Positions 39,482-56,599 are shown, counted from the first letter of the stretch. The stretch is DNA of 64,000 nucleotides from Halobacterium hubeiense (GCF_001488575.1 NZ_LN831302.1:186001-250000); one strand, 5' to 3'. Notes: a model not told the origin generated them from the letters alone. Numbers and translations: made by a program.

Positions 39482-40576
39482 TCACTGACCGGTGGTTCGC
39501 AGGGCTTCGATCCGTGGTGCGTCCCGGACCCCTGCGAACACCACGAGGACGCCCAGGCTATCGCTGTTCGGCAGCGGATTGTCGCCGGTGCGGAGCTGCA
39601 CCGACCCGATCTCCTCGGCTAGCCAGCTTTGCCCGTCCGAGATCGCTGACTGATGCAGCCATGCCGGTGGCCCGGCGACGATTAGCAATGCGCTTGCTGC
39701 TCCATCCAGCGGGCAGTCGAAGGTTAAGCGTCCCCGCGTCGCCCGCCGAAGCGTGGTTTCGACGCCCTTGATCGCTGTAATCTCGTCGACGGCCCCGTCA
39801 GCCGACCCGACGAGGCCACGAATGCGGTCGAGCATCGACTCCAGACCGGACTGTTGCTCGCTCTGCAGGCGCTGTTCGGCGTACCCGATCGTCGCTAATC
39901 CGCCTTCGTTCAGTGTGGCGATGATCTCGCTGGCATCGACGACGCGCTGACCCACAGTATCGGCGGCTGCAACTTCACCAGCGCTGAAGAGGGCGCCGAG
40001 TCGCTCCACAAGCACCTGATTTAGCTCTCCAGCGACAGCTGTGATGTCGTCGTCCGGATCGAGCCACACGTCGTTGTCAAAGACGATCTGTGCGTCGACC
40101 GCGCTGTCGACTGCTTGGAGCGCCCGTGCCGGGTTCTTATCGGGAATCGCCTCATGGGACGCAGGGAGGATGGTGACCGCATAGATGGGGTGGTCGTACA
40201 GCTCCTGAAGTGCACCCGCGAGTTTGGCGGTGACGCCAGCGCCGGTGCCACCGCCAAGCGATGCAATGAGCACGGTCGCGGCGGCCTCGGAACTGACGGC
40301 GTCTTCGGCGGCGCGTCGGCTTTCGAGACGGTCGGCTTCGAATGCCGCTGTAGCGCGCTCTGGATCGCCGTCCGCCCCGCTCCCACCGGTTTTGACTTGG
40401 CCGAACAGCTGCCGTGCGTCCTCGGGGACGGTATTGAGGTTGGCGAGAGCCGCTTGATCGGTGTCTAAGGCACATACACCGTCGAGATACGACACGTCTC
40501 GCGAGTCGTCATCTTCGAGGAGGGCGTCGACGATGCGTCCGCCTGCACCGCCGACACCGATGGCTGCGACGCGCAT
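39482..40576 (-). CDS. Tubulin/FtsZ superfamily GTPase (CetZ-like), 364 aa
   Basis: The N-terminal nucleotide-binding segment is MRVAAIGVGGAGGRIVDALL. The tubulin signature SLGGGTGAGV is at about residues 106-115, followed by KLAGALQELYDHPIYAVTIL. A conserved NExxxx-like helix region (NPARALQAVDSAVDAQIVFD, where FtsZ/CetZ bind the base) is present. Length fits CetZ and archaeal FtsZ3-like proteins, which control cell shape in haloarchaea. ATG at 40576 is taken as start because it begins directly with the GTPase core; the longer frame adds a weak tail. It is divergent from the surface protein at 40708 and lies within the cell-envelope cluster, which suits a shape-related role. Confidence 0.8.
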   Translation of the reverse strand: MRVAAIGVGGAGGRIVDALLEDDDSRDVSYLDGVCALDTDQAALANLNTVPEDARQLFGQVKTGGSGADGDPERATAAFEADRLESRRAAEDAVSSEAAATVLIASLGGGTGAGVTAKLAGALQELYDHPIYAVTILPASHEAIPDKNPARALQAVDSAVDAQIVFDNDVWLDPDDDITAVAGELNQVLVERLGALFSAGEVAAADTVGQRVVDASEIIATLNEGGLATIGYAEQRLQSEQQSGLESMLDRIRGLVGSADGAVDEITAIKGVETTLRRATRGRLTFDCPLDGAASALLIVAGPPAWLHQSAISDGQSWLAEEIGSVQLRTGDNPLPNSDSLGVLVVFAGVRDAPRIEALRTTGQ

Positions 40577-40659
40577 AGATGGTGTTTCGCGCGAGCGCGT
40601 AAACAGTTGACTCCCCGGTGTTCCCGTACTCATCTCTTATGGTGTCACCCCCGCACTGA

Positions 40660-40708
40660 TTAGGCCGACCTAAAACAAAGCGCTTATACTGTTTTAGGCA
40701 AGCCTAAA
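40660..40708 (+). promoter_or_regulatory. Two DtxR-type palindromes flanking a TATA box
   Basis: TTAGGC-CG-ACCTAA (40660-40673) and TTTAGGC-AA-GCCTAAA (40693-40708) lie on either side of CTTATACT (40683-40690). The second is a perfect inverted repeat that ends on the start codon. Centres are about 34 bp apart. TTAGGC-like palindromes are the targets of metal-dependent DtxR/Idr/SirR regulators. Confidence 0.6.
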
Positions 40709-41946
40709 TGATGATGTTGGACCTCAGCATTCCACCGTCACGAAACGCATACTCGGTGATCGTGGTTGCGCTTCTCTGCACCTCGTTGGCCGTTGGCACG
40801 GGAGCCGCTGCCGGAAGCTCGGACCTCTTCGTCACGATTTCGGACACCACCATCTCCGATGATGAACCTGAGACCGGCGACACAATTACGATCACGCCCA
40901 CGATTCACCACTCGAGCGCGAGTGAAGGCGGGTTTCGAATCACCGAGGTGGTGGTAACCGCATCGACTGGCGAGACGCTCTCGAGTGTCGACAACCTCGG
41001 CACGATCGGGGCTGACGAGTCGATCGATGTGCCGCTTCGGGCGACATTCGATACAGCCGGCGAAAAACACCTGACGATCACCGTTCGTGGTGTTCAAACA
41101 AACTCCAGCGGCGCCGTCGAAGTGATCGACACTATCGACTACCCGGTTTACGTGAGTGTCTCCGAGCCAACGAGCGACGACCCAGAGCCTGCACCCCAGC
41201 TCGACATCGACGCCGATACTGCCGTTGCTAACACAGCCGTCCCGGTCAACGTCACCGTTTCGAACGGCCGCGAATCTGACCTCTCGGACCTATCTGTCCG
41301 GCTGAACGCCGTTAACCAGTCGCTTGACACGGAGACGCGGTTGAAGCCGACCCTTGCAGCCGGGAACCTGACGACGTTCTCCTTCGAAATTCAGCCAGCT
41401 GCGGCCGGTAACCTCACACTCCGAGCGGTCCTCGACGCCGAGGAAGAGACAGTTGAGACCACCCGCTCGATCCCCGTGCGGGAACTCCGCTCGGAAATCG
41501 CCGTGGATGCGACAGTTCTTACGCAAAACGACTCCCGCTACCTGCAATACCGAGTCACCAACCTGGGGAACGCACCCGCACACGACGTCACGATCGTCGG
41601 CCAAGCGGGTGAGACACAGCTCCCCGCTGCCGGTATCGGTACTGTTGCCCCTGCCACGTCGCAGACCGCGCTCATCCCCGCGGATGTTCCACCAAACACG
41701 TCGGTCACTCTCCAGAGTAGTTACACGGTCGGCACCGAAACGAACCAGCACAGCCGCACTATCGACAGCGTGTCGGCTGTGAACGCGCAAACCGCAGACG
41801 ACGGTGGAGTTCAGGCAGCACAACAGTTCCCGCTCATCGGCGGTCTCGCCGGCGGTTTCCCCGGTTCACTCGTCGGATTCGTCCTCTTTAGTGCCTGCGT
41901 TGGCGTTGGCTGGGTTGGCTATCGCCGCTTCCGGACCGCCGACTGA
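40708..41946 (+). CDS. Secreted CARDB-like membrane-anchored protein, 412 aa
   Basis: Three ATGs in a row (40708, 40711, 40714) precede the signal peptide (YSVIVVALLCTSLAVGTGAA). The exterior has CARDB-like repeats (EPETGDTITITPTIHHSSAS, DADTAVANTAVPVNVTVSNG). A C-terminal helix (GSLVGFVLFSACVGVGWVGY) ends in RRFRTAD. The N-terminal domain is like that of the ABC-linked protein at 32741 (compare SVDNLGTIGADESIDVPL with TADNLGRLGAGDSTEVPL). The promoter carries two DtxR-type palindromes, the second overlapping the start codon, so metal-dependent repression is probable. The third ATG is perhaps the true start, as it puts the TATA box about 28 nt upstream. Confidence 0.78.
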   Translation: MMMLDLSIPPSRNAYSVIVVALLCTSLAVGTGAAAGSSDLFVTISDTTISDDEPETGDTITITPTIHHSSASEGGFRITEVVVTASTGETLSSVDNLGTIGADESIDVPLRATFDTAGEKHLTITVRGVQTNSSGAVEVIDTIDYPVYVSVSEPTSDDPEPAPQLDIDADTAVANTAVPVNVTVSNGRESDLSDLSVRLNAVNQSLDTETRLKPTLAAGNLTTFSFEIQPAAAGNLTLRAVLDAEEETVETTRSIPVRELRSEIAVDATVLTQNDSRYLQYRVTNLGNAPAHDVTIVGQAGETQLPAAGIGTVAPATSQTALIPADVPPNTSVTLQSSYTVGTETNQHSRTIDSVSAVNAQTADDGGVQAAQQFPLIGGLAGGFPGSLVGFVLFSACVGVGWVGYRRFRTAD

Positions 41947-42033
41947 TTGCGGGCAGCTGTTACTGCTCGGCGCTGTTCCACGCTGCAAGCTATAAACCAC
42001 GATTTTTAGCCGTCTCGCTCCCGAAGCGACGTT

Positions 42034-42795
42034 ATGGACGACACCACCCTGACGGAGTCGCTCAAGGAGCTGGGATTATCGACGTACGCCGCGGAAACCT
42101 TCCTCGGATTACAGCGGGTTGGCCCTGCAACGGCCAGCGACATCGCCGCCATTACTGATGTTCCGCGTTCGCAGGTGTACGGGGCAGCCGATGAGTTAGA
42201 AGAGCTTGGATTGGTGAACGTTCAATCCTCGAACCCCAAAGAGTTCCGGGCTGTCTCCCCGAGTACAGCCGGTGAACTGCTACGCTCTCGGATTGCTCAA
42301 CAGACGACGGAGATGGTGAGCCAACTAGAAGCGATTCGGGCGGCAGATGGTCGGCCTGAACAGGGGGAATCGGATTCAATCTGGCGGGTGCAAGGACTGC
42401 AGAACACCAATCAGAAGGCTATTGACTTCCTCGAATCCGCGGACAGCCGAGTGCATTACTACGTCACTGCTGCTGCGTTTCTCCCGAGCGCCGCGGTTGA
42501 CGCTCTTGAGGCGACCGCCACAGACGGCTGCACCGTCTCAGTATTTGCTCCGGCTGATACTGCCGTTGCTGAGCGTCGACCGGGACTGGTCGCGGACACG
42601 ATCGGTTTCGAGCATATTGATCCTCCGGCCGCGTTTGCGGACAACTGCACCCGGCTTCTGGTCGTCGATGACAGCGCAGTCCTGATCGGCGTCACAACGC
42701 CACAGGCCCCTCGCGAGGAGCTATGCTTCTGGAGTGCCGGTGAACAGGTCGCCCCGCCACTTGCAGCGGCTTTTCGCGCCGTGCTGCGTCAGTAG
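42034..42795 (+). CDS. TrmB-family transcriptional regulator, 253 aa
   Basis: The N-terminus is the typical TrmB winged helix: LTESLKELGLSTYAAETFLG, LQRVGPATASDIAAITDVPR, SQVYGAADELEELGLV. A helical linker (about 75-110) and a phospholipase-D-like effector domain follow (VHYYVTAAAFLPSAAVDALE, RLLVVDDSAVLIGVTTPQAP). TrmB proteins usually sense sugars or metabolites; the ligand here is not evident. ATG at 42034 has an AT-rich region about 25-40 nt upstream. It follows the DtxR-controlled surface gene but with its own promoter. Confidence 0.88.
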   Translation: MDDTTLTESLKELGLSTYAAETFLGLQRVGPATASDIAAITDVPRSQVYGAADELEELGLVNVQSSNPKEFRAVSPSTAGELLRSRIAQQTTEMVSQLEAIRAADGRPEQGESDSIWRVQGLQNTNQKAIDFLESADSRVHYYVTAAAFLPSAAVDALEATATDGCTVSVFAPADTAVAERRPGLVADTIGFEHIDPPAAFADNCTRLLVVDDSAVLIGVTTPQAPREELCFWSAGEQVAPPLAAAFRAVLRQ

Positions 42796-43407: not shown

Positions 43408-44031
43408 TCAGTTCACCAGAACCGTCTCCAGATAGGCGTGGATCGCCTCGCGGACCGGTTCCACGTCTGCGTTCGTCGTAACTCGTCGTGAGAAAATACC
43501 GTTCAAAAGCGTTGAGACAACCGCCGCCACGCGTTCCGCATCGACATCAGCGAACTGGCCACGGTCGATCCCCGCTTGAATGACGTCCGCAATGTGGTCC
43601 TGCTGGAGACGCGTAATCTCCGTAATCTTCTCTCGGTAGGCGTCATCGTGGGTTGCCCGTGCCCGAATCTGAATGAACACTCGGAGTGTCTCCTCCGATG
43701 GTGGCGAGAATCCTGCTAGCTCTCCCTCCATCTGTCGCCCAAATGCGACTTGATCGATGAAGCACTGTAGTTGCTGAAGAGAGTCACCATCTTCCTGTTG
43801 AACCATTCGGTATTTCATTTCCTCGATGACGTAATCAACGAGTGCGAGCAGGAGACTGTCTTTATCTGAATAGTGGTGGTAGACAGACGCTTTTTGGAGT
43901 CCCACTTCGTCGGCGATACGGCTCATTGACAGACCACTGTAGCCGTGTTCTTGGAGAACAAGAAAGGCTGCTCGGAGGATCTCCTCACGAGTGTCTTCGG
44001 GGGGTCCTTCGAAAGGGCTATCTATATCCAT
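43408..44031 (-). CDS. TetR-family repressor, 207 aa
   Basis: The N-terminal HTH is typical: TREEILRAAFLVLQEHGYSG, LSMSRIADEVGLQKASVYHH, YSDKDSLLLALVDYVIEEMK. The remaining helices form a ligand-binding domain (VAFGRQMEGELAGFSPPSEE, VAAVVSTLLNGIF). TetR proteins control exporters in response to a compound. The gene is divergent from the operon of COG1361-like and RND genes at 44453-48388, which is therefore its likely target. ATG at 44031. The 420-bp spacer contains a TetR-type inverted repeat. Confidence 0.9.
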   Translation of the reverse strand: MDIDSPFEGPPEDTREEILRAAFLVLQEHGYSGLSMSRIADEVGLQKASVYHHYSDKDSLLLALVDYVIEEMKYRMVQQEDGDSLQQLQCFIDQVAFGRQMEGELAGFSPPSEETLRVFIQIRARATHDDAYREKITEITRLQQDHIADVIQAGIDRGQFADVDAERVAAVVSTLLNGIFSRRVTTNADVEPVREAIHAYLETVLVN

Positions 44032-44217
44032 AGTTGAATTCTGCGCTACGTAATCTTTGAACTTGCGGGTCTTGGTAGGTAAACCGGAACAATAATTTGC
44101 GCTTCGAACCGTTCACTCTTTAGTAATGTCGGTGAGGGCTGGCTTGAGGTGTTGATTTCGATGTCTATACTATTTAATACAGTGAACAGGTCTGTGTCAC
44201 CTCACTTAGGGCGTGCT

Positions 44218-44292
44218 TGACTAAACAGCTGAAAGATCATTTAGTTGCGGCCAAGAAAGGAAAGATTGAATACCTGCCGACCGTTCGGTAGG
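44218..44292 (+). promoter_or_regulatory. Candidate operators between TetR and the exporter operon
   Basis: An imperfect 20-bp inverted repeat (CCTGCCGA-CCGT-TCGGTAGG, 44273-44292) has the CCGA...TCGG half-sites common for TetR proteins. A second element at 44218-44232 (TGACTAAACAGCTGA) resembles the palindrome upstream of the second operon (48485-48498). The remainder of 44032-44452 holds no gene. Confidence 0.45.
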
Positions 44293-44417
44293 CACAAGTT
44301 GAGGAGCAAGAGAGGGCGTCCCGAGAAGTATGTACTGGGGATGAGCGTGCCCATACGTCATGGGTCATGCTATCGACAGATAGTGTGATATATGACTTAA
44401 ATTGAACGCTCATCAAT

Positions 44418-44427
44418 CAAAAAATAA
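44418..44427 (+). promoter_or_regulatory. TATA-like box of the first exporter operon
   Basis: CAAAAAATAA is centred about 30 nt before the ATG at 44453, implying a leaderless transcript. Confidence 0.45.
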
Positions 44428-44452
44428 CACACCGAAATACGCTAGTAACTAG

Positions 44453-46108
44453 ATGATTGACAAACCGCACGCTCAGAAATACGTTTCCGGAATAACCGTT
44501 ACCGCTCTCGCACTAATGGTCGTGCTTACGGCAGTCCCGATGCCAGTACAGGCCGCCGAAAGCACAGTTACTGGGAAACCAGATATTAGTGTCTCATCAC
44601 CGAACGGGCCGGTTGAAGCTAGTTCTACACAAACGCTCACAGTTACGCTCTCAAATACGGGGACGATCCTTCAGGGTGGTCAAGCCAGCTATGAACAAGA
44701 AGTACAGACTGCTGAGGGGCTGCAAGTTCAGGTTTTAGAAGACCGGATTAGTGAACCAATCAATGTAAATACCGGTACACATACTGTTAGTAGTCTCCCA
44801 AGCGGGACCGCTGCCCGGTCACAGTTCCAACTTGAACTCGGCCAAGTGGAGCCTGGTACGTACCGGATTCCTATCGAAGTATCGTACGAACACACGCGCT
44901 CCGTTTCGTATGGTCCATATCAGGAGACGTTCCGAAAGACGAGCGAAGAAAACGACATCCGGTATATTGAGCTGACAGTCGAAGAGAAACCACAGTTCAA
45001 ACTCGTCGCTGAAGGTGAGAACAACGTCTTCGGCGGTGATACTGGCCAGCTTGCATTCACCGTGAAAAACACGGGGACGCAAACCGCCACTGATGCGTCC
45101 GTACAGCTGCGCAGTCAATCGCCGGCACTCTATTTCGGGTCCCAATCCAGCCCGCAGTCCTCGACGAGCCTCTACATCCCGTCGATTGCACCCGGCGAAA
45201 CCAGAAATCTCTCCGCTCAAGTTGGCGCCGAAGCGAACACTGAAGCTGGTCACTACCCCATTGAGACGACACTTGCGTACACCAACGAGAACGGCGTGAC
45301 CGAGCAATCTGATACGTTAACAACCGGGGTCTTAGTTCAGCCTGAGCGCCGCTTTGCACTGACAAACATCCAAACGGAACGCTTCCGCGTGGATGAATCC
45401 GAGGCAACGATTCAAGCCGAGGTCGTTAACACCGGCACTGGCAACGCAAATAATGTTGCTGTTCGCCTTACCTCGCTGCCAGGTATCACTGCAACTAACG
45501 GGGAGGCCGCGGTAGGGAATCTCGCGCCGGGTGAATCAAAACCGGTGTCGTTCACCGTGTCAATTCCCGAGTCGGCAGAACCAGGCACGAACTCCTTCCC
45601 GTTCGCTGTCGAATACGAGAACCCGGACGGTGACCTCCGAACGACAACGTCCCCGATTCGGAAAGCACTCGAAATTGGTGCCGAACAGAATCCGTTCAAG
45701 GTCGTCAACGTCAGCACCGATGTGTCCCCGGGTGGAAGTGACACGGTCGCCGTTCGAGTGCAATACCAAGGTGACGACCCTGTGTCGGCGACGAATGCAA
45801 AACTGTTCGTCAGTGACCCACTATCGACCTCTGACGACGGCGCGTATCTCGGTTCCATGGAACCCGGTGAGACGAAGGTGGCAACGTTTACAGCGAGTGC
45901 CGGCTCCGATGCGCTCGTCAAAGACTACGACGCGTCAGTCGAGATTCGATACGACGAACAGGATGGGGATACGAAGTACACTGACGGTCTCCCGATCGGC
46001 GTCGCGATCTCTCCGGCTTCAGGCGGGCTACCGGTGCCGCTCCCGGTGATCGGCGCCATCGTTGTTGTGGTTCTCGGAGCCGGCTACCTCCTGTATCGGC
46101 GCCGTTAA
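44453..46108 (+). CDS. COG1361-like secreted protein, partner of RND exporter 1, 551 aa
   Basis: A signal peptide (VSGITVTALALMVVLTAVPM, cleavage near QAA at about 34) precedes several beta-sandwich domains (QTLTVTLSNTGTILQGGQAS, GQLAFTVKNTGTQTATDASV, VAVRVQYQGDDPVSATNAKL). A C-terminal helix (PLPVIGAIVVVVLGAGYLLY) ends in RRR. COG1361 proteins of this layout are often found directly before MMPL/HAE3 exporters in archaea. It may act as an exterior adaptor that receives substrate. Start ATG at 44453; 27 nt separate it from the exporter. It is homologous to 48598-50223 (both start with an E-x-x-x-G-x-P-D-I-S strand). Confidence 0.85.
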   Translation: MIDKPHAQKYVSGITVTALALMVVLTAVPMPVQAAESTVTGKPDISVSSPNGPVEASSTQTLTVTLSNTGTILQGGQASYEQEVQTAEGLQVQVLEDRISEPINVNTGTHTVSSLPSGTAARSQFQLELGQVEPGTYRIPIEVSYEHTRSVSYGPYQETFRKTSEENDIRYIELTVEEKPQFKLVAEGENNVFGGDTGQLAFTVKNTGTQTATDASVQLRSQSPALYFGSQSSPQSSTSLYIPSIAPGETRNLSAQVGAEANTEAGHYPIETTLAYTNENGVTEQSDTLTTGVLVQPERRFALTNIQTERFRVDESEATIQAEVVNTGTGNANNVAVRLTSLPGITATNGEAAVGNLAPGESKPVSFTVSIPESAEPGTNSFPFAVEYENPDGDLRTTTSPIRKALEIGAEQNPFKVVNVSTDVSPGGSDTVAVRVQYQGDDPVSATNAKLFVSDPLSTSDDGAYLGSMEPGETKVATFTASAGSDALVKDYDASVEIRYDEQDGDTKYTDGLPIGVAISPASGGLPVPLPVIGAIVVVVLGAGYLLYRRR

Positions 46109-46135
46109 TCGCCCCACTAATCGACTAACTAATCT

Positions 46136-48388
46136 ATGGCTAAGTTACGTGGCATATTCGCCTCGATCGGTGATCGAATCCAGGCCCGCCCAGTAGCGAC
46201 ACTTCTGATTGCGGCGTTGTTAATTCTCGTCGCAGTCGGTGGCGCCGCACAGATCACGAGTGTCACTGGGGATGCAGCCTTCGTTGGCAGTGACCCCACG
46301 TACGAGGCGTTCTCTGAATCGTTCGACCGTGGCACAATTGCGGTCCTAGTCCGGGGTGATATCACTGAGCCGTCGACAATCGAGGCGATCGACAGATATG
46401 ACCGGCAAATGGCGAAGACCGACGATGTCTACATGGTCCAGAGTCCGGCCGATCAAATCCGTGCGGAATACGGCCGGATTCCGGAATCGCAGGCAAAAAT
46501 CGAAGCCGTCATCGGTTCTCCCGACTACACGACAGTCCAGATCGTCACTGACACTGGCCTGTCACAACAAGCGGAACGCCCAATTTACTCGAAAGCAGTC
46601 AGTACCAGCGAATGGGCGCGGTTCCCCGCCAGTGCAACGGTGACAGTCACCGGGAGCGCAGCGTTCTCTGCGCAGCTCTCGACGCTCATCCAGCAGAGCA
46701 CCCAGCAGTTACTCGGCCTGGCAGTCGGGCTGATGATTCTCGCCCTGTTCTTCCTCTTTCGTGGTGTACGATTACGCTTGTTGCCGATCGTCGCCGTCTT
46801 CACGGGTGTCATTTATACCTTCGGGGCGATCGGCTATGGTGGCATTCCGAACTCGACGATGACGAGTGCGGTGTTCCCGATTCTCATCGGTTTGGGAATC
46901 GACTATTCCGTGCAGTTCCACGAACGGTATGAGGAGGAACTGGAAACGTATCCGCCCAGGACCGCGCTTCCGAAGGCGCTCGGCGGGGTTGGGCCACCAG
47001 TCCTGATTGCGATGCTCGCCGCGGCACTTGGATTCGGCGCAACCTGGGTGTCCGCGACTTCCCCGGCGATTATTTGGTTTGCTCAGACTTCGATTCTAGG
47101 TGTCCTGCTAACGTTTCTCGCAGGAATTCTCGTCCTGCTGTCGGGACTTACCCTCTACGTTCGCTGGAAAGCTGACCCGGCCGAAACGCAGCCCGATGGT
47201 GGTGAGAGTGCAGAGCCGGCCCAAGATGGTGATGCAGACATCGGGTTTGTCGGACGGACGCTTGGCCGCGGCTCACGTGTACTTGCGACCCACCCCGTTG
47301 CCGTGCTACTGCTCGCGCTCGTCCTGACGGGCGTCGGCTTCCAGATCGGAGGGTCACTAGACACGATGGCTGACACTGAAGAGTTCATCCCGCAAGATCT
47401 CCCCGCATACGTTGACCTCCAGCAGTTCCGGGCTGAGACTGGTGGTGGCGGCTCCACCAGCTACGACGTGCTCGTTACGGGGTCGGAGTTGAAGCATCCG
47501 GAGACGTTGCGGTGGATGACTGACCTAGAACACGTTGCAACACAGGCGCCACTGATAGAGGGTGTCGATACTCCGGCAACGCTGGTGAAACAGTACAATG
47601 GTGGCGAGATCCCCCAGACGGAGGCTGGCGTCAGCCGCGTGCTCGAACAGATTCCCGAACAGCAGCGCCAGCAGTATTACAACGATGGCCGAGCACATAT
47701 TACGATCGTGTCGCCACAGGATATGACCACCGCTGAAGTGTTGTCGTTCCTGGAGAACGCACGCGGCTCAATCTCGTACAGTTCTCCACCACCGGGAGTT
47801 ACTGCAGAGCTTACCGGAACAGCCGCGATCTCTACGCCCGCGATCATGGAGCAGATCGAGTCACGAAACACCACCACAGGGTTGGGTGTGCTCTTTGTGT
47901 TCGCACTCCTCTTGCTGTACTACCGTGATCTCGTGAAAGCAGTTGCCCCACTCGTGCCAATGGTGTTCGTGATCGGGTGGCAGAACATCTATATGTTCGC
48001 GCTTGATCTACCGGTCTCTCCACTCGGAGCAAGCCTCGGAGCTATGACCGTCGGGATCGGCGCTGAGTACACGATCATCGTGATGGAGCGTTATTATGAG
48101 GAAAAACGGCGGGACGGCGTGAGCCGACTTGATGCTGTCCAAGTGGCCGCCGGCCGCGTCGGGAAAGCAATCAGTGTCTCCGGGATGACCACGGTTTTCG
48201 GCTTTTCCGCGCTCATTCTCTCTCCATTCCCGGTTCTCAGTAGCTTCGGCTTCCTCACTGTCGGCGTGATCTTCCTCACGCTGATCGCGTCGCTCGCAAC
48301 GCTCCCGCCAACCCTGATCGTCTTAGATACAGTCGCTGAGCGAGTGACCACATATTGGGGGACTAGTGCAGAACACACCGGAACTTAA
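46136..48388 (+). CDS. RND superfamily exporter (MMPL/HAE3 type), 750 aa
   Basis: Twelve membrane helices in two halves, each starting with one helix followed by a large exterior domain, then five helices. The first half shows RPVATLLIAALLILVAVGGA, QQLLGLAVGLMILALFFLFR and SAVFPILIGLGIDYSVQFHE. The second shows AVLLLALVLTGVGFQIGGSL, LGVLFVFALLLLYYRDLVKA and AMTVGIGAEYTIIVMERYYE. The G-x-x-x-D/E-Y motif in helix 4 of each half (GLGIDYSVQF, GIGAEYTIIV) carries the proton-relay acid. Likely function is export of lipids or hydrophobic compounds by proton or sodium exchange. Length is normal for the family. Confidence 0.9.
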   Translation: MAKLRGIFASIGDRIQARPVATLLIAALLILVAVGGAAQITSVTGDAAFVGSDPTYEAFSESFDRGTIAVLVRGDITEPSTIEAIDRYDRQMAKTDDVYMVQSPADQIRAEYGRIPESQAKIEAVIGSPDYTTVQIVTDTGLSQQAERPIYSKAVSTSEWARFPASATVTVTGSAAFSAQLSTLIQQSTQQLLGLAVGLMILALFFLFRGVRLRLLPIVAVFTGVIYTFGAIGYGGIPNSTMTSAVFPILIGLGIDYSVQFHERYEEELETYPPRTALPKALGGVGPPVLIAMLAAALGFGATWVSATSPAIIWFAQTSILGVLLTFLAGILVLLSGLTLYVRWKADPAETQPDGGESAEPAQDGDADIGFVGRTLGRGSRVLATHPVAVLLLALVLTGVGFQIGGSLDTMADTEEFIPQDLPAYVDLQQFRAETGGGGSTSYDVLVTGSELKHPETLRWMTDLEHVATQAPLIEGVDTPATLVKQYNGGEIPQTEAGVSRVLEQIPEQQRQQYYNDGRAHITIVSPQDMTTAEVLSFLENARGSISYSSPPPGVTAELTGTAAISTPAIMEQIESRNTTTGLGVLFVFALLLLYYRDLVKAVAPLVPMVFVIGWQNIYMFALDLPVSPLGASLGAMTVGIGAEYTIIVMERYYEEKRRDGVSRLDAVQVAAGRVGKAISVSGMTTVFGFSALILSPFPVLSSFGFLTVGVIFLTLIASLATLPPTLIVLDTVAERVTTYWGTSAEHTGT

Positions 48389-48484
48389 TCTGTCTCGTTC
48401 GTCTCTTTTCCTGTTTCGAGCCGAGTTACTGTGTTGCCACTGTTGTACCCGACACCAGTAACTTGATAACCAAGCATACGGTTG

Positions 48485-48498
48485 TGACTAAATAGTCA
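48485..48498 (+). promoter_or_regulatory. 14-bp perfect palindrome upstream of the second exporter pair
   Basis: TGACTA-AA-TAGTCA lies 100 nt upstream of the ATG at 48598, in a 209-bp spacer. A similar half-site is present upstream of the first pair. It could be a shared regulator site. Confidence 0.4.
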
Positions 48499-48597
48499 GT
48501 CAGCTACGAGCGGGTTTGTGTACGCCCATAACTACCAAAACACAATCATCCACAAGTGACCACTAATGAACGCCAATCACAACAGCGGTGTTAGTCC

Positions 48598-50223
48598 ATG
48601 AACTCGAACTATTCCACAACTATCCTTGTCGTTGCGCTCGTCCTGGCCTCGGTCGCCATTGCCGGCGTTCCTGGCGCGGTTAGCGCCCAAGAATCTGGGG
48701 AAGTGATCGGTCAACCGGATATTTCCTTCGCCACGGCAACCGGCGAAGTCTCAGCTGGGACGGCCGACGAGCTCAGCATCGCGATCACAAACCGCGGCTC
48801 CATCGATAAGGGCGGCCCATCCCAATACGAAAACCGAGTAACGACTGCCCGCGGGATGACGATGAGCCTCGATGACAGCAACGTGCCGATTGACGTTCAA
48901 GCCGGTGAACTCTCCATCGGGAACGTCCCAACTGGCTCTAGCCAAACGACAGTCCCAATTGAGATCGCTGAAGATGCTGCATCGGGGACGTACAAGATTC
49001 CCGTCGAATACGAGTATCAGTTCTCGCGAGTCGTTGACTACGACGCGTACGGAACTGATTACAGTGACTTCACGCGCACGCGCACCGGATCTATCACGGT
49101 GGCGGTAACTGACGACGCCCGCTTCGAAGTAGTGGACATTACCGGCACGGCCCAGATCGGCGATGATAGTGATGTCTCGATGACGCTGCGCAATACGGGC
49201 GCGGAAATCGCTCGTGGAGCAACAGTCGGTGCGACTTCCCGCAGCAACGCATTGACCTTTGATTCCGGTGGCCCGAGCGCAACGTCGTACGTGGGTGACT
49301 GGGAGTCCGGTGAGACTCGGAACGTGTCGTATGGCATCTCCCTTGCGCCTGATGCGACACAGCGTGGGTACACGCTCGATCTCACGGTCGAATACCAGGA
49401 TGCGAACGGAATCAGCCAGTCATCTGAGCCAATGACAGCCGGCGTTGAGGCCATCGATGAACAAGCGTTCGCGTTCAGCGATGTGGACACCTCACTACGC
49501 GTGGGAGAGGACGGCGAAATTACGGGCACCGTCACGAATCAGGGCCCACAGTCCGCAAAGAGCGTCGTCGTTCGCTACGCCGATGAATCCGCGACAATGG
49601 TGCCGATCGAAGAATCCGTCGCCGTCGGCTCGCTCGACGCGGGCGAGTCCGCATCGTTCCGACTGCCGATTGAAGTCACGAGTAGCGCCGAGGCGAGTCC
49701 GAATCTGATCGACTTCGCGGTTAACTACCGGAACGCCGATGGTGACCGACGGGCGTACGATAAGCTCGACGTCCGCGCTGATGTCGCCCCCGAACGCGAC
49801 CAGTTTACTGTTGAGCTCGCCGAACAGACGATCGAGACGGGCGGCTCACGCACGATCGCTGTCGACGTGACGAACAATCTGAATGAAACCGTCACGGACA
49901 TCGAAGCGCGGCTGTTCGCTGACGACCCCCTCGATACTGGTGATGCAGACACCGGCTACGTCGAGTCTATGGAGCCAGGGGAAACCGTCACGGTGTCCTT
50001 CGAGCTGACGGCGGCGTCATCGGCAACGCCGGATAAGACCTACCCGATTTCGTTCGACTTCCGGTACGACGATCAGCGGGGGAACAGCCAGTTGACGGAC
50101 ACCATGCGCGTCCCGATCAACGTCGTGGAGAGTAGTGGTGGCGGCCTCCCGATGCCGCTAATCATCGGCGCAGTCGTCCTCATCGGGGGGGCTGCAGCAG
50201 TGCTCTGGTATCGGAGGCAGTAA
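48598..50223 (+). CDS. COG1361-like secreted protein, partner of RND exporter 2, 541 aa
   Basis: A signal peptide (TTILVVALVLASVAIAGVPG, cleavage near VSA at about 31) starts the protein. Repeated CARDB/COG1361-like domains follow (ADELSIAITNRGSIDKGGPS, SDVSMTLRNTGAEIARGATV, GEITGTVTNQGPQSAKSVVV). The C-terminal helix is GGLPMPLIIGAVVLIGGAAA with WYRRQ. Paralogous to 44453-46108. Only three nucleotides separate its stop from the exporter start, so they are co-translated. ATG at 48598 is chosen over an earlier out-of-frame ATG at 48566. Confidence 0.85.
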   Translation: MNSNYSTTILVVALVLASVAIAGVPGAVSAQESGEVIGQPDISFATATGEVSAGTADELSIAITNRGSIDKGGPSQYENRVTTARGMTMSLDDSNVPIDVQAGELSIGNVPTGSSQTTVPIEIAEDAASGTYKIPVEYEYQFSRVVDYDAYGTDYSDFTRTRTGSITVAVTDDARFEVVDITGTAQIGDDSDVSMTLRNTGAEIARGATVGATSRSNALTFDSGGPSATSYVGDWESGETRNVSYGISLAPDATQRGYTLDLTVEYQDANGISQSSEPMTAGVEAIDEQAFAFSDVDTSLRVGEDGEITGTVTNQGPQSAKSVVVRYADESATMVPIEESVAVGSLDAGESASFRLPIEVTSSAEASPNLIDFAVNYRNADGDRRAYDKLDVRADVAPERDQFTVELAEQTIETGGSRTIAVDVTNNLNETVTDIEARLFADDPLDTGDADTGYVESMEPGETVTVSFELTAASSATPDKTYPISFDFRYDDQRGNSQLTDTMRVPINVVESSGGGLPMPLIIGAVVLIGGAAAVLWYRRQ

Positions 50224-50226
50224 CTG

Positions 50227-52695
50227 ATGGGAATCGGAGACCGGATTGAGGCGGCGACGAGACGACTCAACGACACGATCGTCTCTCGTCCGCGTGCGGT
50301 CGTGTTGGCGTTTCTTGTCGTTACAGCCATGTTTGTCGGTGGCTTCGGGCTGATCTCGACTGAAACCGACTCGACCGAATCATTCACCGATGGTCTTGAA
50401 GCTCAACAGGCTCTCGATTCGGTCAACGCGGAGTTCGAGGACCCATTCCGCCCGGAGATGGAGTCCACGCAGCTCATCCACACGGGGGATAACGTCCTCA
50501 CGAAGGAGGCGCTTGTTCGAAACATCCGCCTCATCGAAGAGATCGAAAGCCGCGACGACCTTCGAATGGCGTCGGCTTCCGGCCCGGCGCCGGTTGTCGC
50601 GCAAGCGATCGACCCCTCAGCGACAACGGTCGCTGAACAGCGCCGCGTGCTCGAAGCTGCGTCGGCAACCGAAATCCGACAAACGATCCGCAGCTTATCG
50701 GACAACGCCCAGTTCACCGGCGTTATTTCGGAGGATTTCAACCCGACGTCCGTTTCTGCGACGGCGTCGATCACGTCCGTCTCTCACGATGTTCCTCAGG
50801 GATTCACGGATGATGACCTGACCGCGGTCCAGACGTCCATTCAGTCGCTTGCGAGTAGTGAGCCCGGCGATATCCGTGCGTTCGGTGCTGGGATCACGAA
50901 CGCGGAGATGAGCAACGTCATCGGCGACTCGCTGGTCATCGTGATGCCGGTCGTCGTCATTCTCCTGTTGATCTTCCTGGTGGTCGCATACCGGGACCCG
51001 ATCGACCTGCTGTTGGGGTTGTTTGCCCTCTTGATGACGATCATCTGGACGTTTGGGTTCCTCGGCTACTCCGGGATCCCGTTCAATCAACAGATGATCT
51101 CCGTCCCCGTATTGCTGCTGGCAGTCGGGGTTGACTTCGGGATTCACATCATCAATCGCTATCGGGAGGAGACAGTCCAGGGCTTCGAACCGGTCAAGGC
51201 GATGCGGACAGCGAACAACCAGTTGATGATCGCGTTCGTGATCGTCACTGTGACGACCGTGTTCGGGTTCGGCGCGAACGTGATTTCGGACCTCACCCCG
51301 ATTCGCAACATGGGGATTGCGTCGAGCGCAGGGATCATCTTCACGTTCCTCATCTTCGGCCTGTTCCTCCCCGCGGCAAAGCTCGAAGTGGATAAACTCC
51401 GGGCCCGATTTGGCGTTCCCGAGTTCAACTCGGAGCCAATTGCATCCGAAGACTCTGCCCTGGGTCGTGCACTATCGCTGCCCGCCGTTGTAAGTCGGTA
51501 CGCACCGACTGTCTTTGTGCTGGTCTTACTGCTTACGGGCGGTGTCGCCGCCGCCTACGGTTCTGGAGTTGACACGTCCTTCGAGACGGAGGACTTCCTC
51601 CCACCCGAACAACAACCAGGGTACGTGACGGGGCTGCCGGAGCCGTTTGCGCCCAGTGACTACACCGTCACGGAGACGACGAACTTACTCGAAGACAAAT
51701 TCGCAACGAACCAAGACCAATCGGTGACAATATACTTTGAAGGATCGTTTGAGGAAGCTCATGCGCTCGAAGCGCTTGCCAGCCCGAATGATGACCCACC
51801 TGAGGAGCTCGCGGTCGGCGCTGGTGGTGGGGCGCAAGCTCAAAGCATTCTCACGGTCATACAGTCGCACGCCCAGCAGAACCCCGAATTCGCTGAACTT
51901 ATCGCACGAAACGACCAGAATGACAACGGCATTCCGGACCGGAATCTCGACCGCATCTATGATGTGCTGTTCGCGTCCAGCGCAAGCGACCAAGCATCCC
52001 AGTATCTGACTGAGGACCGGCAGGCCGCCCAAGTCGTCTATTCCATAGATTCAGACGCCTCACAGTCAGCAGCTGCCGACGCAACCCGGCAGTTCACTGA
52101 GGACTTCCGGTACACCGCGACGGCGACAGGCCAAGTCGTGGTGTTCGACGCCGTGACGGGGATTATCTTCACGTCCGCGATTGAGGGACTGGTGCTTGCC
52201 ATCGGCTTGACCGCCATCTTCCTCGTGATTGCTTACGGGGTGTTGGAGCGGAAACCGATGCTCGGCGTTGTGAACGTGTTCCCCATCCTCATCTCGATTG
52301 CGTACCTGATCGGAACGATGCGATATCTCGGGATGGCATTAAACGCGTTGACAGCAACCATCCTCTCGATCTCGATCGGACTCGGGATCGCCTACTCCGT
52401 TCACACAACGCATCGATTTATCGACGAGTTCAACGAGAGCGGCGATGCACACATGGCGATGGTGCGCACGCTTTCGGGAACTGGTGGGGCGCTGTTAGGC
52501 AGCATGCTAACCACCTCTCTCGGGACGGGTGCACTTGCACTCGCCATCACCCCCGTTCTTGGCGACTTCGGGCTTCTGATGGCGATTAGTGTGGTGTACT
52601 CGTTCATCTTCTCCATCGTCGCATTACCACCCGCAGTATTGCTGTGGTCGCGGTACCGTAACAGCGAACCACTCGCGATAGTACGCTCCCGTTGA
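50227..52695 (+). CDS. RND superfamily exporter (MMPL/HAE3 type), 822 aa
   Basis: Same two-half layout as exporter 1: first helix RPRAVVLAFLVVTAMFVGGF, an exterior domain, then helices including IVMPVVVILLLIFLVVAYRD and SVPVLLLAVGVDFGIHIINR. A second half begins with PTVFVLVLLLTGGVAAAYGS and includes GLVLAIGLTAIFLVIAYGVL and ATILSISIGLGIAYSVHTTH. In helix 4 the first half keeps an acid (GVDFGIHI) while the second has GLGIAYSV, lacking it, so the halves are not equivalent. A longer exterior loop in half 2 (about 500-640) differs from exporter 1. The stop codon at 52693-52695 overlaps an inserted IS end, so the native terminator is lost. Confidence 0.9.
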   Translation: MGIGDRIEAATRRLNDTIVSRPRAVVLAFLVVTAMFVGGFGLISTETDSTESFTDGLEAQQALDSVNAEFEDPFRPEMESTQLIHTGDNVLTKEALVRNIRLIEEIESRDDLRMASASGPAPVVAQAIDPSATTVAEQRRVLEAASATEIRQTIRSLSDNAQFTGVISEDFNPTSVSATASITSVSHDVPQGFTDDDLTAVQTSIQSLASSEPGDIRAFGAGITNAEMSNVIGDSLVIVMPVVVILLLIFLVVAYRDPIDLLLGLFALLMTIIWTFGFLGYSGIPFNQQMISVPVLLLAVGVDFGIHIINRYREETVQGFEPVKAMRTANNQLMIAFVIVTVTTVFGFGANVISDLTPIRNMGIASSAGIIFTFLIFGLFLPAAKLEVDKLRARFGVPEFNSEPIASEDSALGRALSLPAVVSRYAPTVFVLVLLLTGGVAAAYGSGVDTSFETEDFLPPEQQPGYVTGLPEPFAPSDYTVTETTNLLEDKFATNQDQSVTIYFEGSFEEAHALEALASPNDDPPEELAVGAGGGAQAQSILTVIQSHAQQNPEFAELIARNDQNDNGIPDRNLDRIYDVLFASSASDQASQYLTEDRQAAQVVYSIDSDASQSAAADATRQFTEDFRYTATATGQVVVFDAVTGIIFTSAIEGLVLAIGLTAIFLVIAYGVLERKPMLGVVNVFPILISIAYLIGTMRYLGMALNALTATILSISIGLGIAYSVHTTHRFIDEFNESGDAHMAMVRTLSGTGGALLGSMLTTSLGTGALALAITPVLGDFGLLMAISVVYSFIFSIVALPPAVLLWSRYRNSEPLAIVRSR

Positions 52696-53217: not shown

Positions 53218-54303
53218 ATGCGTGTTCAGACGCTTCACGCTGCTCTCGCCGCGCTCGTTGTTATTGGAACAGCGATCGCCGGGACGGGTCTACTGACGGT
53301 GCAGGCGACCGCAGGCCCACCAACGCCGCAGGTGATGGATGGCACGGCACAGTCAACGAACATCGCTGCTGAAGCGCCGCGTGGCCGGTGGGATCCCACC
53401 ACAGGGACGGGAGAACTGATACTGGATAACCGGAGCTATTATACCGTATTTCAGGGTGAAGATGATATCGAGGCATGGCGGAATACGGATGGTGATGTGG
53501 TCTCCGGGACGCTGCTCGAGGGGGAGTCCGGAGCAAGCGAAGGCGACCTGCTTGACCTCACTAGCTCCATTCCAGCTGACCAGGCCACCGGGCGTTACTC
53601 CTCGGCGGAACTCACCGCTCGTGTTCTGGAACCCCGCATCTCGCAAGTTACACTCCGCAACCAGAATGGCGTCGAGATGGGTGCTGACGCTGCGATCCCG
53701 ACGAATAATCCAGTGTTGGTGACGGCTGATTGGAATTACGTGCAGGCTGAAGATATCCAGATTGCCGTGGTTGACCAGAGTGAGGGGATTACGATCGAGA
53801 AGGAAGTGCTTGCGGCTTCGCCTTCAGACGCCCAAGCGGCGCAGTTGCCTGCGGACTTCTCGACGACGAATCTTAGTCGGGTGACCCAAGGTCTCGGAAC
53901 GACGGGCCACAATACCGCCTACTGGCTCTTAGATTTCACCGAGGTTGACGAGGGAGCCTACACCCTTCGGATCAAGGGGTCGGATAGCCTGACTGCTAAC
54001 GATGCCGCGTGGACAACCGAACTGAGTGTTGGTGAACCGACGGCCCCAACCGAAACCACGACCGCTCTGACGTCGACGACGCCACAGACGGAAACGACGG
54101 CTCCAGCCACTCCATCGACCGAGCGACCGTCCGAAACGCCGACCACAGAGGCGGTGTCTCCACGGACACCAACGAGGAGTCAGACATCGACGGTATCGCC
54201 CACGCAAACCACGACAGAAGTGGATGGGGCAGGGTTCGGACTAGCTACGGGACTGCTAGCTGGACTCGTAGTCGCTGCCGTCGTGACCCTACGTCGGCTG
54301 TAA
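53218..54303 (+). CDS. Short S-layer paralogue with Thr-rich stalk, 361 aa
   Basis: The signal peptide (LHAALAALVVIGTAIAGTGL, cleavage near ATA at about 32) is followed by a domain homologous to the start of the S-layer core: YTVFQGEDDIEAWRNTDGDV and TSSIPADQATGRYSSAELTA. S-layer gene 1 has TVFQGEDDIQFVDENGND and PIPQDQTTGSYDLNG at the equivalent places. A roughly 65-residue Thr/Pro stalk (TETTTALTSTTPQTETTAPA) leads to GAGFGLATGLLAGLVVAAVV and TLRRL. This resembles a PGF-CTERM tail, but Pro-Gly-Phe has become Ala-Gly-Phe, so processing by archaeosortase is uncertain. ATG at 53218 directly follows the decayed IS, which now supplies its promoter region. Confidence 0.8.
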   Translation: MRVQTLHAALAALVVIGTAIAGTGLLTVQATAGPPTPQVMDGTAQSTNIAAEAPRGRWDPTTGTGELILDNRSYYTVFQGEDDIEAWRNTDGDVVSGTLLEGESGASEGDLLDLTSSIPADQATGRYSSAELTARVLEPRISQVTLRNQNGVEMGADAAIPTNNPVLVTADWNYVQAEDIQIAVVDQSEGITIEKEVLAASPSDAQAAQLPADFSTTNLSRVTQGLGTTGHNTAYWLLDFTEVDEGAYTLRIKGSDSLTANDAAWTTELSVGEPTAPTETTTALTSTTPQTETTAPATPSTERPSETPTTEAVSPRTPTRSQTSTVSPTQTTTEVDGAGFGLATGLLAGLVVAAVVTLRRL

Positions 54304-54652
54304 GCCGACCGCGCCGACCGACACAAAATAAGATATCTCGAAGCCCCACGCGGGGTACGAGTCCCGGCTTCGTGGCGGAGCCAGTGCTGTCGGTCACAAA
54401 GCTTAGATTCCCAACCGTCAGGGTTGCCATGCCCGGCTAACACCGGGTGGGAGCACGTCACTGTTCGGCCTCAACTTAACACGGTCCCGCAGTTGCCCAA
54501 AGTATTTATCCGGACAATCACTTCGTTTAGACAACCAAGTGTCTCCCGGGGAATGTTGGAGGACGTATGACGGCGAGTCGACCACTACTGCGTTCGGTCT
54601 CTCAGGGGGCCGTCTCGACACCCCGGTTGATACGCCACTAGCCGCTTAACTC
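54304..54652. other. Intergenic region with IS-like hairpins
   Basis: GATTCCCAACCGTCAGGGTT and CCCGGC-TAACA-CCGGGTGGG (around 54408-54451) look like the end of an IS1341-type element, without a gene. A TATA-like AAAGTATTTATCC (about 54499-54511) has no obvious gene within 40 nt. No RNA gene recognised. Confidence 0.35.
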
Positions 54653-56599
54653 ATGATGTATACTCTTTCCCAAGGTAGGCTGATCCGTCAGTTGCTCGTC
54701 GTGGTGGTGGTTACAGCAGCGGTCTGCGCACCGGTTGTCGGAGCTGCCAGCCCTGGCCCGGCATCGGTCTCCCACGAGTCCACTACGACCACCCCGAACT
54801 CGGAGAATCTCACAGCCATGAACGGCACCATACTGCGGTCCACGCAGTCGACCGCTGGAGCTTCCTCTTCCGATGGCTGGAGCCAGACGAGCTACGAACA
54901 GCCAGCTGGCGACATCGTCACCGTCTCGCTGAATCTGTCCACGATGACAGCGACCGACGGTGTTACTGCTGAACGTGGCTCGGCCCGCGATCACGCCTAT
55001 ATTCAACTTGGGGGGGTTTCAAGCGGCTTTCTCGACGTGCTCCGTGTCGAGGACGCTGACAGCGATGGAGATGTTACGTTTTCGATCAATACGCGGACGC
55101 TTGGGACGAGCGACAGTATCAGCGCCACAGCTAGCGACCTCGTTTACCACAGTGACGGTGACGTCATTCGGAGCAGCGTTCACGGCCGGCTTTCAACCGC
55201 TGACGACAGCCCCACCTTTCTCGGGCCGGACGGCTCCGAACTGACCGGATTTGGCGAATACCTCGCTGCATTAGGGCTCATCGACTCGGCATCGGCCGAT
55301 CGTGGCATTGACCAACTTCGGCGGCCGTTGCAGCCGGGGAACTACTCTCTCCTCGCCAGTACAGCCGGTGAGTTCCGCGCCAATGCCACATCCGATTCTC
55401 GTGGCTCCGCTGAGTACACATCCAAACCGACGTCGCCCACCATCGAGGCAACAACGATCGAACTGACGAAGCCAGGCCTCGGCGAAATGTCCATCCAAGC
55501 TGCGCCGGCAGGGCCGGCAAATGCCGCTCCCAACCACACGGCATTGGTAGACTCCGCGACGGAGAGCCGGACAGTCACGGCGACCGACCGGATCGTGATT
55601 ACCGCCGAGGCGACCGGCATTTATGGCCATCTCGTCGCGATTGAGGGAGGGTTCGAAGCGCTCTCAACAGGGTTCGATCCCGGAACTCTCTCGCAGTTGG
55701 AAACTAGAACCGGGGAGGGAGTTGAGTTTGCGGTTGAGTCGACTGACGGGCCGGTGCTACGCGGTCCCGGTCCTTCGGACGGACTTGAATCTCCACTTGA
55801 GGTGTTGGACCTCTCCACGCTTGACGCAACCGCTGTCACTGTGTATGCGGACAATACGGCGGGGAAACTCTACATTGTCGTCGATCCGCGGGCAACAGAT
55901 ACCTTCGCGTTGACCGACGACGCTAGCCGAAATTTCTCCGCTGCCCTCGAGTACCGCACCGACGCAACGTCGCCATTCCTCTTTGACCGTGAGGACCAGC
56001 ACATCCAGTCGTACTATCGCGGCTTGGTGGGCGGTGCTGGCGGCGATGTCGATACACCCGCCTTCCCGTACTTTGAACCTGGTGAGAACACCACCGCGAC
56101 GACCCAGTTCTCGCTCGTCGAACCACGCGTCCGGTTCGAGGGCACGGATGGGTGGGTGGAGTCGGGTTCCCCGGTTGTCGTCGACCGACAGTCTCCGACC
56201 CATATCCGCGGGAAAACGAACATCGCGCCCGGGACGGACGCGGAACTTCAACTGACATCCCGAGCGGCAAACACGTCATTCACGTCGTTGCAGCGGTCAC
56301 CTGTCTCGATCGCCCCAAATGGAACGTTCTCTGGCACGCTCGACCTCTCCGAGGCAGCGGTCCGTGGGACATCGACTCTCTCGCTTCTGATTGATGGTAC
56401 GGAGGTTGCTCGCACGGAGTTGGTGGTCGTTTCGGAGGTTCAGCAGACGGCGAACCAGTCTGTGCAAACGACTGTCGTTTCCGCTGAATCCGAGACGGAC
56501 GCAGAGGAATCAGGCGGGACTACACCTAGCCTCACCCCGCTCACCGCCCTCATTGTGGTAGCCGCCGCGTTCGCGTGGCTGTTTATATCCCGGCGGTAG
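54653..56599 (+). CDS. Secreted, anchored surface protein related to BGTF-type domains, 648 aa
   Basis: A signal peptide (IRQLLVVVVVTAAVCAPVVG, cleavage near GAA at about 32) is followed by a region organised as in haloarchaeal S-layer-associated surface proteins: GDIVTVSLNLSTMTATDGVT, YIQLGGVSSGFLDVLRVEDA, LQPGNYSLLAS. A charged linker (ETDAEESGG) leads to the C-terminal helix (TPLTALIVVAAAFAWLFISR). No PGF motif, so anchoring is by the helix alone. Many N-x-S/T sites suggest glycosylation. ATG at 54653 (a second ATG follows immediately). The surroundings (S-layer paralogue upstream, archaeosortase downstream) suggest a cell-wall role. Confidence 0.72.
   Translation: MMYTLSQGRLIRQLLVVVVVTAAVCAPVVGAASPGPASVSHESTTTTPNSENLTAMNGTILRSTQSTAGASSSDGWSQTSYEQPAGDIVTVSLNLSTMTATDGVTAERGSARDHAYIQLGGVSSGFLDVLRVEDADSDGDVTFSINTRTLGTSDSISATASDLVYHSDGDVIRSSVHGRLSTADDSPTFLGPDGSELTGFGEYLAALGLIDSASADRGIDQLRRPLQPGNYSLLASTAGEFRANATSDSRGSAEYTSKPTSPTIEATTIELTKPGLGEMSIQAAPAGPANAAPNHTALVDSATESRTVTATDRIVITAEATGIYGHLVAIEGGFEALSTGFDPGTLSQLETRTGEGVEFAVESTDGPVLRGPGPSDGLESPLEVLDLSTLDATAVTVYADNTAGKLYIVVDPRATDTFALTDDASRNFSAALEYRTDATSPFLFDREDQHIQSYYRGLVGGAGGDVDTPAFPYFEPGENTTATTQFSLVEPRVRFEGTDGWVESGSPVVVDRQSPTHIRGKTNIAPGTDAELQLTSRAANTSFTSLQRSPVSIAPNGTFSGTLDLSEAAVRGTSTLSLLIDGTEVARTELVVVSEVQQTANQSVQTTVVSAESETDAEESGGTTPSLTPLTALIVVAAAFAWLFISRR

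Follow-up and report, generated by a model that had tools for sequence, protein, structure and literature searches.

Two adjacent gene pairs of Halobacterium hubeiense, each encoding a secreted multi-Ig protein (adaptor) and an RND exporter, lie at positions 43,408 to 52,695 of a 64,000-nt stretch (NZ_LN831302.1:186001-250000; hereafter the window). We consider it probable, though well short of certain, that they constitute two TetR-regulated bipartite modules, in which the exporter acts together with a four-Ig rod that would dock through Ig3-Ig4 and carry exchangeable Ig1-Ig2 domains, and that these modules are separate old lineages joined by recombination.

Results

Gene organization of the locus

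All five ORFs described in the initial annotation were recovered at the same coordinates, with the same order and fold in both pairs, and the Pfam matches to TetR_N, CARDB (two proteins) and MMPL (two proteins) lie well above their cut-offs. The TetR-family regulator (43408-44031, minus strand, 207 aa) is divergent to pair 1 and matches PF00440 (E 1.1e-14; TetR_N HTH, 54.4 bits against a cut-off of 24) and TetR_C_6 (E 4.5e-12). Pair 1, on the plus strand, consists of adaptor 1 (44453-46108, 551 aa), a secreted CARDB/COG1361-like multi-Ig protein with a signal peptide and a C-terminal TM segment that ends in RR in the alignment, and exporter 1 (46136-48388, 750 aa), an MMPL/HAE3-type RND exporter of class 1 (PF03176, E 1.1e-43). 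A spacer (48389-48597, plus strand) separates it from pair 2 on the same strand, which consists of adaptor 2 (48598-50223, 541 aa), a secreted CARDB/COG1361-like four-Ig protein with a C-terminal TM segment at residues 519-540, and exporter 2 (50227-52695, 822 aa), an MMPL-type RND exporter of class 2 (PF03176, E 2e-34). The CARDB domain scored 68.6 bits (E 5.7e-19) and 47.6 bits (E 2e-12) in adaptors 1 and 2 against a gathering score of 22.7; "COG1361-like" denotes here a match to the CARDB profile, not to a COG1361 model. As had been claimed, the pairs are quite divergent, with 34% identity between the adaptors over 555 aa and 23% between the exporters over 619 aa. The genome also encodes a third pair (from C1:155029), which shares 68% identity with pair 2 in the exporter and 51% in the adaptor. 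A fourth MMPL exporter, of approximately 1231 aa, has no partner.

Next to the locus (39482-42795) are genes for a CetZ tubulin-like protein, a TrmB regulator and another secreted CARDB protein; the last, of 412 aa and located at 40708, did not match the adaptor HMM. The third pair likewise has a tubulin/FtsZ-like gene, probably also CetZ, at a distance of approximately 2.3 kb (L009 1-619). Downstream of exporter 2, at 53218-56599, are genes for surface proteins (S-layer-like, BGTF domain).

Exporter classes and the TM10 acid

Both exporters have two MMPL stretches (PF03176, 149.9 and 119.5 bits against 20.5) and, judging from these matches and the model of exporter 2, the two MMPL halves and 12 TM segments of MMPL/RND proteins. 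Against the HAE3 model TIGR00921 (cut-off 351.9 bits), exporter 1 scores above the threshold at 412.2 bits and exporter 2 below it at 200.4 bits. The AF2 model of exporter 2 (pLDDT 83.4) has its best PDB matches in the MmpL5/MmpL4/HpnN/NPC1 family, and we classify it, from these sequence and model matches, as an MMPL/RND exporter of the HVO_A0467-like kind.

The initial annotation stated that exporter 2 lacks the acid in helix 4 of its second half. The acid is indeed missing, since TM10 of exporter 2 has A722-Y723 where exporter 1 has E644-Y645, but this is not peculiar to exporter 2. Alanine occupies the position in 12 of 25 class-2 exporters (Asp in the other 13) and in 15 of 24 class-3 exporters (Asp in nine), and the ten class-1 exporters have Glu (eight) or Asp (two). 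The 12 class-2 exporters with Ala form one supported clade, and Ala therefore appears to be an old state, not a lesion. The TM4 acid is present in both exporters (D256-Y257 and D303-F304), and the TM4 Asp was found in all 59 aligned exporters. A722 and Phe304 of exporter 2 (Tyr257 in exporter 1) presumably correspond to residues of the Tyr-Asp pairs of MmpL3, and by this analogy one of the two MmpL3-type pairs would be wholly missing from exporter 2. Two Tyr-Asp pairs have been named as needed for the proton relay in MmpL3 (PMC10171966).

Pairing of adaptors and exporters

Pairing of class-2 exporters was counted from the exporter side at 80 loci in named genomes, 79 of which had room for an upstream gene. 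An adaptor is encoded directly upstream on the same strand at 72 of these 79 loci. The exceptions comprise six loci with no adaptor-like gene directly upstream, five in Natrinema (three of them inspected individually) and one in Halohasta litorea (likewise inspected), and a locus of Halorussus amylolyticus in which another secreted protein takes this place. The class-2 exporters of Natrinema and Halohasta, if they work at all, do so without a partner, which counts against the module reading. None of the 24 class-3 exporters, almost all of which come from Halobacterium genomes, has an adaptor, and all ten class-1 exporters are paired, a count that is biased because these loci were reached from the adaptor side. 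Pairing is thus close to a rule in two exporter classes and absent from the third, and the obligatory pairing that the initial annotation had assumed holds for class 2 as a near-universal arrangement only. Of 34 pairs examined, 33 have an adaptor-exporter gap of at most 43 nt, and in eight of these 33 the genes overlap.

Partnerless Halobacterium exporters of approximately 1000-1240 aa include that of L010 (2673-6368, genome C1:1580326 region) and its relatives; the L010 exporter has a long C-terminal extension past TM12, and its gene is followed by a TrmB-like gene. Adaptors of approximately 1000-1140 aa, double the usual length, are encoded beside a normal class-2 exporter in G007 (L089 5803-9228), G028 (L129 7051-10266) and G030 (L150 6259-9306).

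Fold and inheritance of the adaptor domains

The AF2 model of adaptor 2 (pLDDT 86.8) shows four beta-sandwich domains (approximately residues 34-172, 176-286, 291-395 and 403-510) followed by a C-terminal helix. Its PDB matches over the whole chain are long multi-Ig proteins with high rmsd, informative only as "Ig rod", and only Ig-like multi-domain proteins occur among the top fold matches listed. The signal peptide, four Ig domains, C-terminal TM segment, gene pairing and co-inheritance agree with the earlier proposal that the CARDB protein is an exterior partner, and it is predicted to be membrane-anchored.

The four domains differ in how closely they follow the exporter. Spearman correlations between domain and exporter distances in 32 pairs were 0.44 (Ig1), 0.46 (Ig2), 0.70 (Ig3) and 0.81 (Ig4), and those in 61 further pairs were 0.41, 0.50, 0.56 and 0.75, respectively; in the latter set, the difference between Ig4 and Ig1 or Ig2 stayed positive under resampling. 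Ig1-Ig2 evolve faster (mean distance approximately 1.1), and rate alone lowers such correlations; the AU tests are less affected. The Ig3-Ig4 tree contains exactly the 12-row TM10-Ala clade of the exporters (100/100), whereas the AU test rejects this clade for Ig1-Ig2 (p 0.001). Two pairs from one genome (L108 and L109) are sisters in the exporter and Ig3-Ig4 trees and unrelated in Ig1-Ig2 (AU p 2e-6). These tests show a true conflict between the Ig1-Ig2 and exporter trees. Adaptor 1 of G009 (L090 10658-12294) is chimeric: its first approximately 172 residues, comprising the signal and Ig1, are those of G009 adaptor 2, and the remainder is of class 1. The two adaptor genes are 95% identical in DNA over 620 nt, upstream DNA included, and the G009 adaptor 1 frame is broken later and split into two frames. 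Taken from these trees, the membrane-proximal domains Ig3-Ig4 appear to track exporter phylogeny and the distal Ig1-Ig2 appear to have been swapped between lineages. Most simply, the contact with the exporter would lie in Ig3-Ig4, and Ig1-Ig2 would be exchangeable.

Operator and regulation

The TetR-like inverted repeat of the initial annotation is a real palindrome, but its best 20-mer, the imperfect TGCCGACCGTTCGGTAGGCA, lies at 44275-44294 rather than at 44273-44292. This putative operator is approximately 160 bp from the start of adaptor 1 and 240 bp from that of TetR, distances that count against the proposed control. It is common to five Halobacterium genomes (the window's, G006, G008, G009 and G011), although the surrounding intergenic DNA has diverged. 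With zero or one mismatch it is a single site per genome, except for one extra one-mismatch site in G009. A pattern drawn from the palindrome, and hence made from the site itself, has 0.08 chance occurrences expected per window. The TetR orthologs of G008 and G011 (84% and 71% identical) both adjoin pair 2 alone, and in G006 pair 1 carries the operator but the TetR gene is elsewhere in the assembly. A separate divergent TetR gene accompanies the third pair, along with a separate palindrome, ACTGAGTGAGCACTCAGT, that is conserved in G021; when up to one mismatch is allowed, each of the two genomes has this site only.

More widely, a divergent TetR gene was found within 1.2 kb upstream at 41 of 72 paired class-2 loci, and strong palindromes occur in 17% of 36 divergent TetR-adaptor gaps compared with 1.4% in resampled sequence. 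Several other haloarchaea (L137, L138 and L145) have an operator-like palindrome of the related TTGATTGAACGTTCAATCAA type in the TetR-adaptor gap. A sigma-70/terminator scan, which is unsuited to archaea, gave no signal above shuffles. A short ORF over the operator (approximately 44190-44285) looked coding at first and was rejected, as its frame is not conserved in G009 or G006.

A palindrome that is conserved in five genomes and almost unique in each thus supports the TetR control suggested earlier, while binding and the direction of control are what we infer: TetR most likely represses the locus via the putative operator. The presence of two TetR/operator sets with different operators in one genome would make separate switching of each pump possible.

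Adaptor homologs beside other exporters

Approximately 65 of about 80 adaptors sampled in the haloarchaeal order adjoin RND exporters, seven adjoin ABC exporters and about four adjoin MFS exporters; for adaptor homologs from other members of the phylum, the adjoining genes encode RND exporters (25), glucose-6-phosphate isomerase (14), MFS exporters (6) and ABC exporters (2), with 18 unassigned, all these counts being approximate because some fetched stretches overlap. Homologs next to MFS exporters were seen at L102, L107, L116, L143, L253, L304, L308, L329 and L330, and homologs next to an ABC ATPase and ABC-2 permease at L121, L148, L278, L282, L287, L292 and L294. In non-halophilic archaea of this phylum (L255, L256, L258, L259 and others), a COG1361-like gene lies just 5' of glucose-6-phosphate isomerase, often overlapping it, with a divergent TrmB gene and no intervening transporter. 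A divergent TrmB regulator is frequent beside adaptor homologs in other archaea of the phylum; divergent regulators recur with the adaptor family, TetR in haloarchaea and TrmB in other archaea.

Discussion

In the mechanism we propose, translation of each accessory protein would be followed directly by that of its own RND (MmpL/HAE3-like) exporter. The accessory protein would stand outside the cell as a rod built from four Ig-like domains and anchored by its C-terminal TM segment. From the trees, Ig3-Ig4 most likely dock on the outer domains of the exporter, and Ig1-Ig2 would form the exchangeable end that reaches to the S-layer or the substrate. Repression by TetR at the palindrome would be relieved by a ligand, probably the exported compound itself, and the substrate is probably toxic or amphiphilic.

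Three other readings of the function were considered. Housekeeping export of lipids, carotenoid or envelope/S-layer material is in keeping with the structural neighbours, which include the lipid and sterol transporters MmpL3, HpnN and NPC1, and with the surface-protein genes that follow exporter 2. We regard it as unlikely, since the distribution is patchy (six of 13 searched Halobacterium genomes are without such an adaptor, and pair 1 is missing from the close relatives G008 and G011) and a dedicated TetR with a single putative operator would better suit inducible export. That the CARDB protein is a co-regulated surface protein rather than a pump part seems quite unlikely: homologs do occur beside glucose-6-phosphate isomerase in other archaea, or alone, and solo class-2 exporters exist, but the great majority of the sampled haloarchaeal adaptors adjoin exporters and their Ig3-Ig4 mirror the exporter tree.

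Siderophore export was proposed for the related Haloferax volcanii operon, in which HVO_A0467 is up 44-fold on iron starvation and docks schizokinen in silico (PMC11349517). The Haloferax (H. sulfurifontis) pair that carries an HVO_A0467 peptide is 74%/61% identical to the third pair, 66%/53% to pair 2 and 24%/31% to pair 1, and the structural matches of exporter 2 include the siderophore exporters MmpL4 and MmpL5 (PMC3561183). However, the operator here is TetR-like, the HVO_A0467 deletion fared neither better nor worse under iron scarcity (PMC11349517), and IucA/IucC (PF04183), present in 11 of 59 genomes, is absent from the window's genome and most pair-bearing relatives. NIS siderophore export as a general role is weakened by this absence from the window's genome, and for the pairs studied here it is very unlikely. 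We retain inducible export by an adaptor-exporter module as the preferred reading.

The two modules appear, from the trees, to be separate old lineages placed side by side and not a recent duplication. In exporter and adaptor trees of 34 pairs, pair 1 belongs to a clade of seven rows (the window with G006, G015, G021, G024, G034 and G036), pair 2 groups with G008, G011, G009 and others, and each clade holds members of several families. The class 1/class 2 split is fully supported in the exporter tree, and the identical class-1 clade is found in the adaptor tree (97). The initial annotation assumed a tandem duplication. Such an origin, with a single ancestral pair copied locally and the copies then diverging, would account for the adjacency, identical order and homologous proteins of the two pairs but is highly improbable, as the trees group each pair with members of other families and not with its neighbour, and the pairs also occur apart (pair 1 without an adjacent pair 2 in G006, G015, G021 and G024; pair 2 without pair 1 in G008 and G011). 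G008 and G011 have TetR, operator and pair 2, and G009 has TetR, pair 1 and pair 2 in the same order as the window. DNA from the spacer into the start of adaptor 2 (approximately 48539-48639) matches G011 at the corresponding place, directly upstream of its pair 2 and into the start of that pair (72.5% over 102 nt, E 1.7e-10), and the window's operator region also matches G011; between the two, pair 1 is present only in the window. The operator thus lies on one side of pair 1 and the promoter-proximal DNA of pair 2 exactly on the other, which argues that recombination, and not in-place duplication, placed pair 1 (class 1) next to pair 2 (class 2). Pair 1 was either gained in the window or lost from G008 and G011.

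Part of this arrangement is already known from Haloferax volcanii, where HVO_A0466/HVO_A0467 form an operon of an RND-T-associated protein and an RND permease; PMC11349517 reports that the pairing is systematic across 21 genomes and that the phylogenies match, and it describes a four-Ig rod with a C-terminal TM segment. The pairs of the window share its gene order, four Ig domains with a C-terminal TM segment, near-universal adjacency and matching phylogenies, with an Ig-rod protein directly 5' of a sequence-related RND permease. Pair 2 and the third pair belong to the HVO_A0466/HVO_A0467 clade; pair 1 is only distantly related, and its exporter is of a different, HAE3-type class. The TetR/operator, the partnerless class, the domain exchange and the MFS and ABC partners are absent from the parts of that paper considered here, and its main text has no occurrence of "TetR" or "palindrom". 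The independent origin of the pairs, the operator, the partnerless class and the proximal/distal split of the adaptor are new, as are the adaptor family beside MFS and ABC exporters and the recurring divergent regulators.

Mycobacterial MmpS4/MmpL4 and MmpS5/MmpL5 likewise combine an MmpL-type RND exporter, which matches in fold, with a small membrane-anchored accessory encoded next to it; MmpS, however, differs from the adaptors here in consisting of a single N-terminal TM helix and a single small soluble domain (PMC3561183). Neither the MmpS nor the HlyD/MFP family was among the Pfam matches of the adaptors (E <= 0.1). In bacteria, the membrane fusion protein family partners RND, MFS and ABC exporters (PMC8277102). 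The adaptors resemble AcrA, EmrA and MacA in that one accessory family serves all three exporter types, but those proteins have a hairpin/lipoyl/barrel architecture, whereas the adaptors are Ig rods with a C-terminal TM segment and have no outer-membrane channel to reach. It is possible, though less likely than not, that archaea have their counterpart of membrane fusion proteins in the multi-Ig (COG1361-like) proteins with a C-terminal anchor. These would be a general exterior adaptor for RND, MFS and ABC exporters, in which the proximal Ig domains would be exporter-specific and the distal ones exchanged between systems. They would be a counterpart by analogy, not by homology.

Because archaea such as Halobacterium have no outer membrane, an exterior partner of their exporters is unexplained. 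The proximal/distal split provides a direct, testable map of where this partner would dock, and since pumps of three types (RND, MFS and ABC) occur with this partner, it may be a general accessory of archaeal export.
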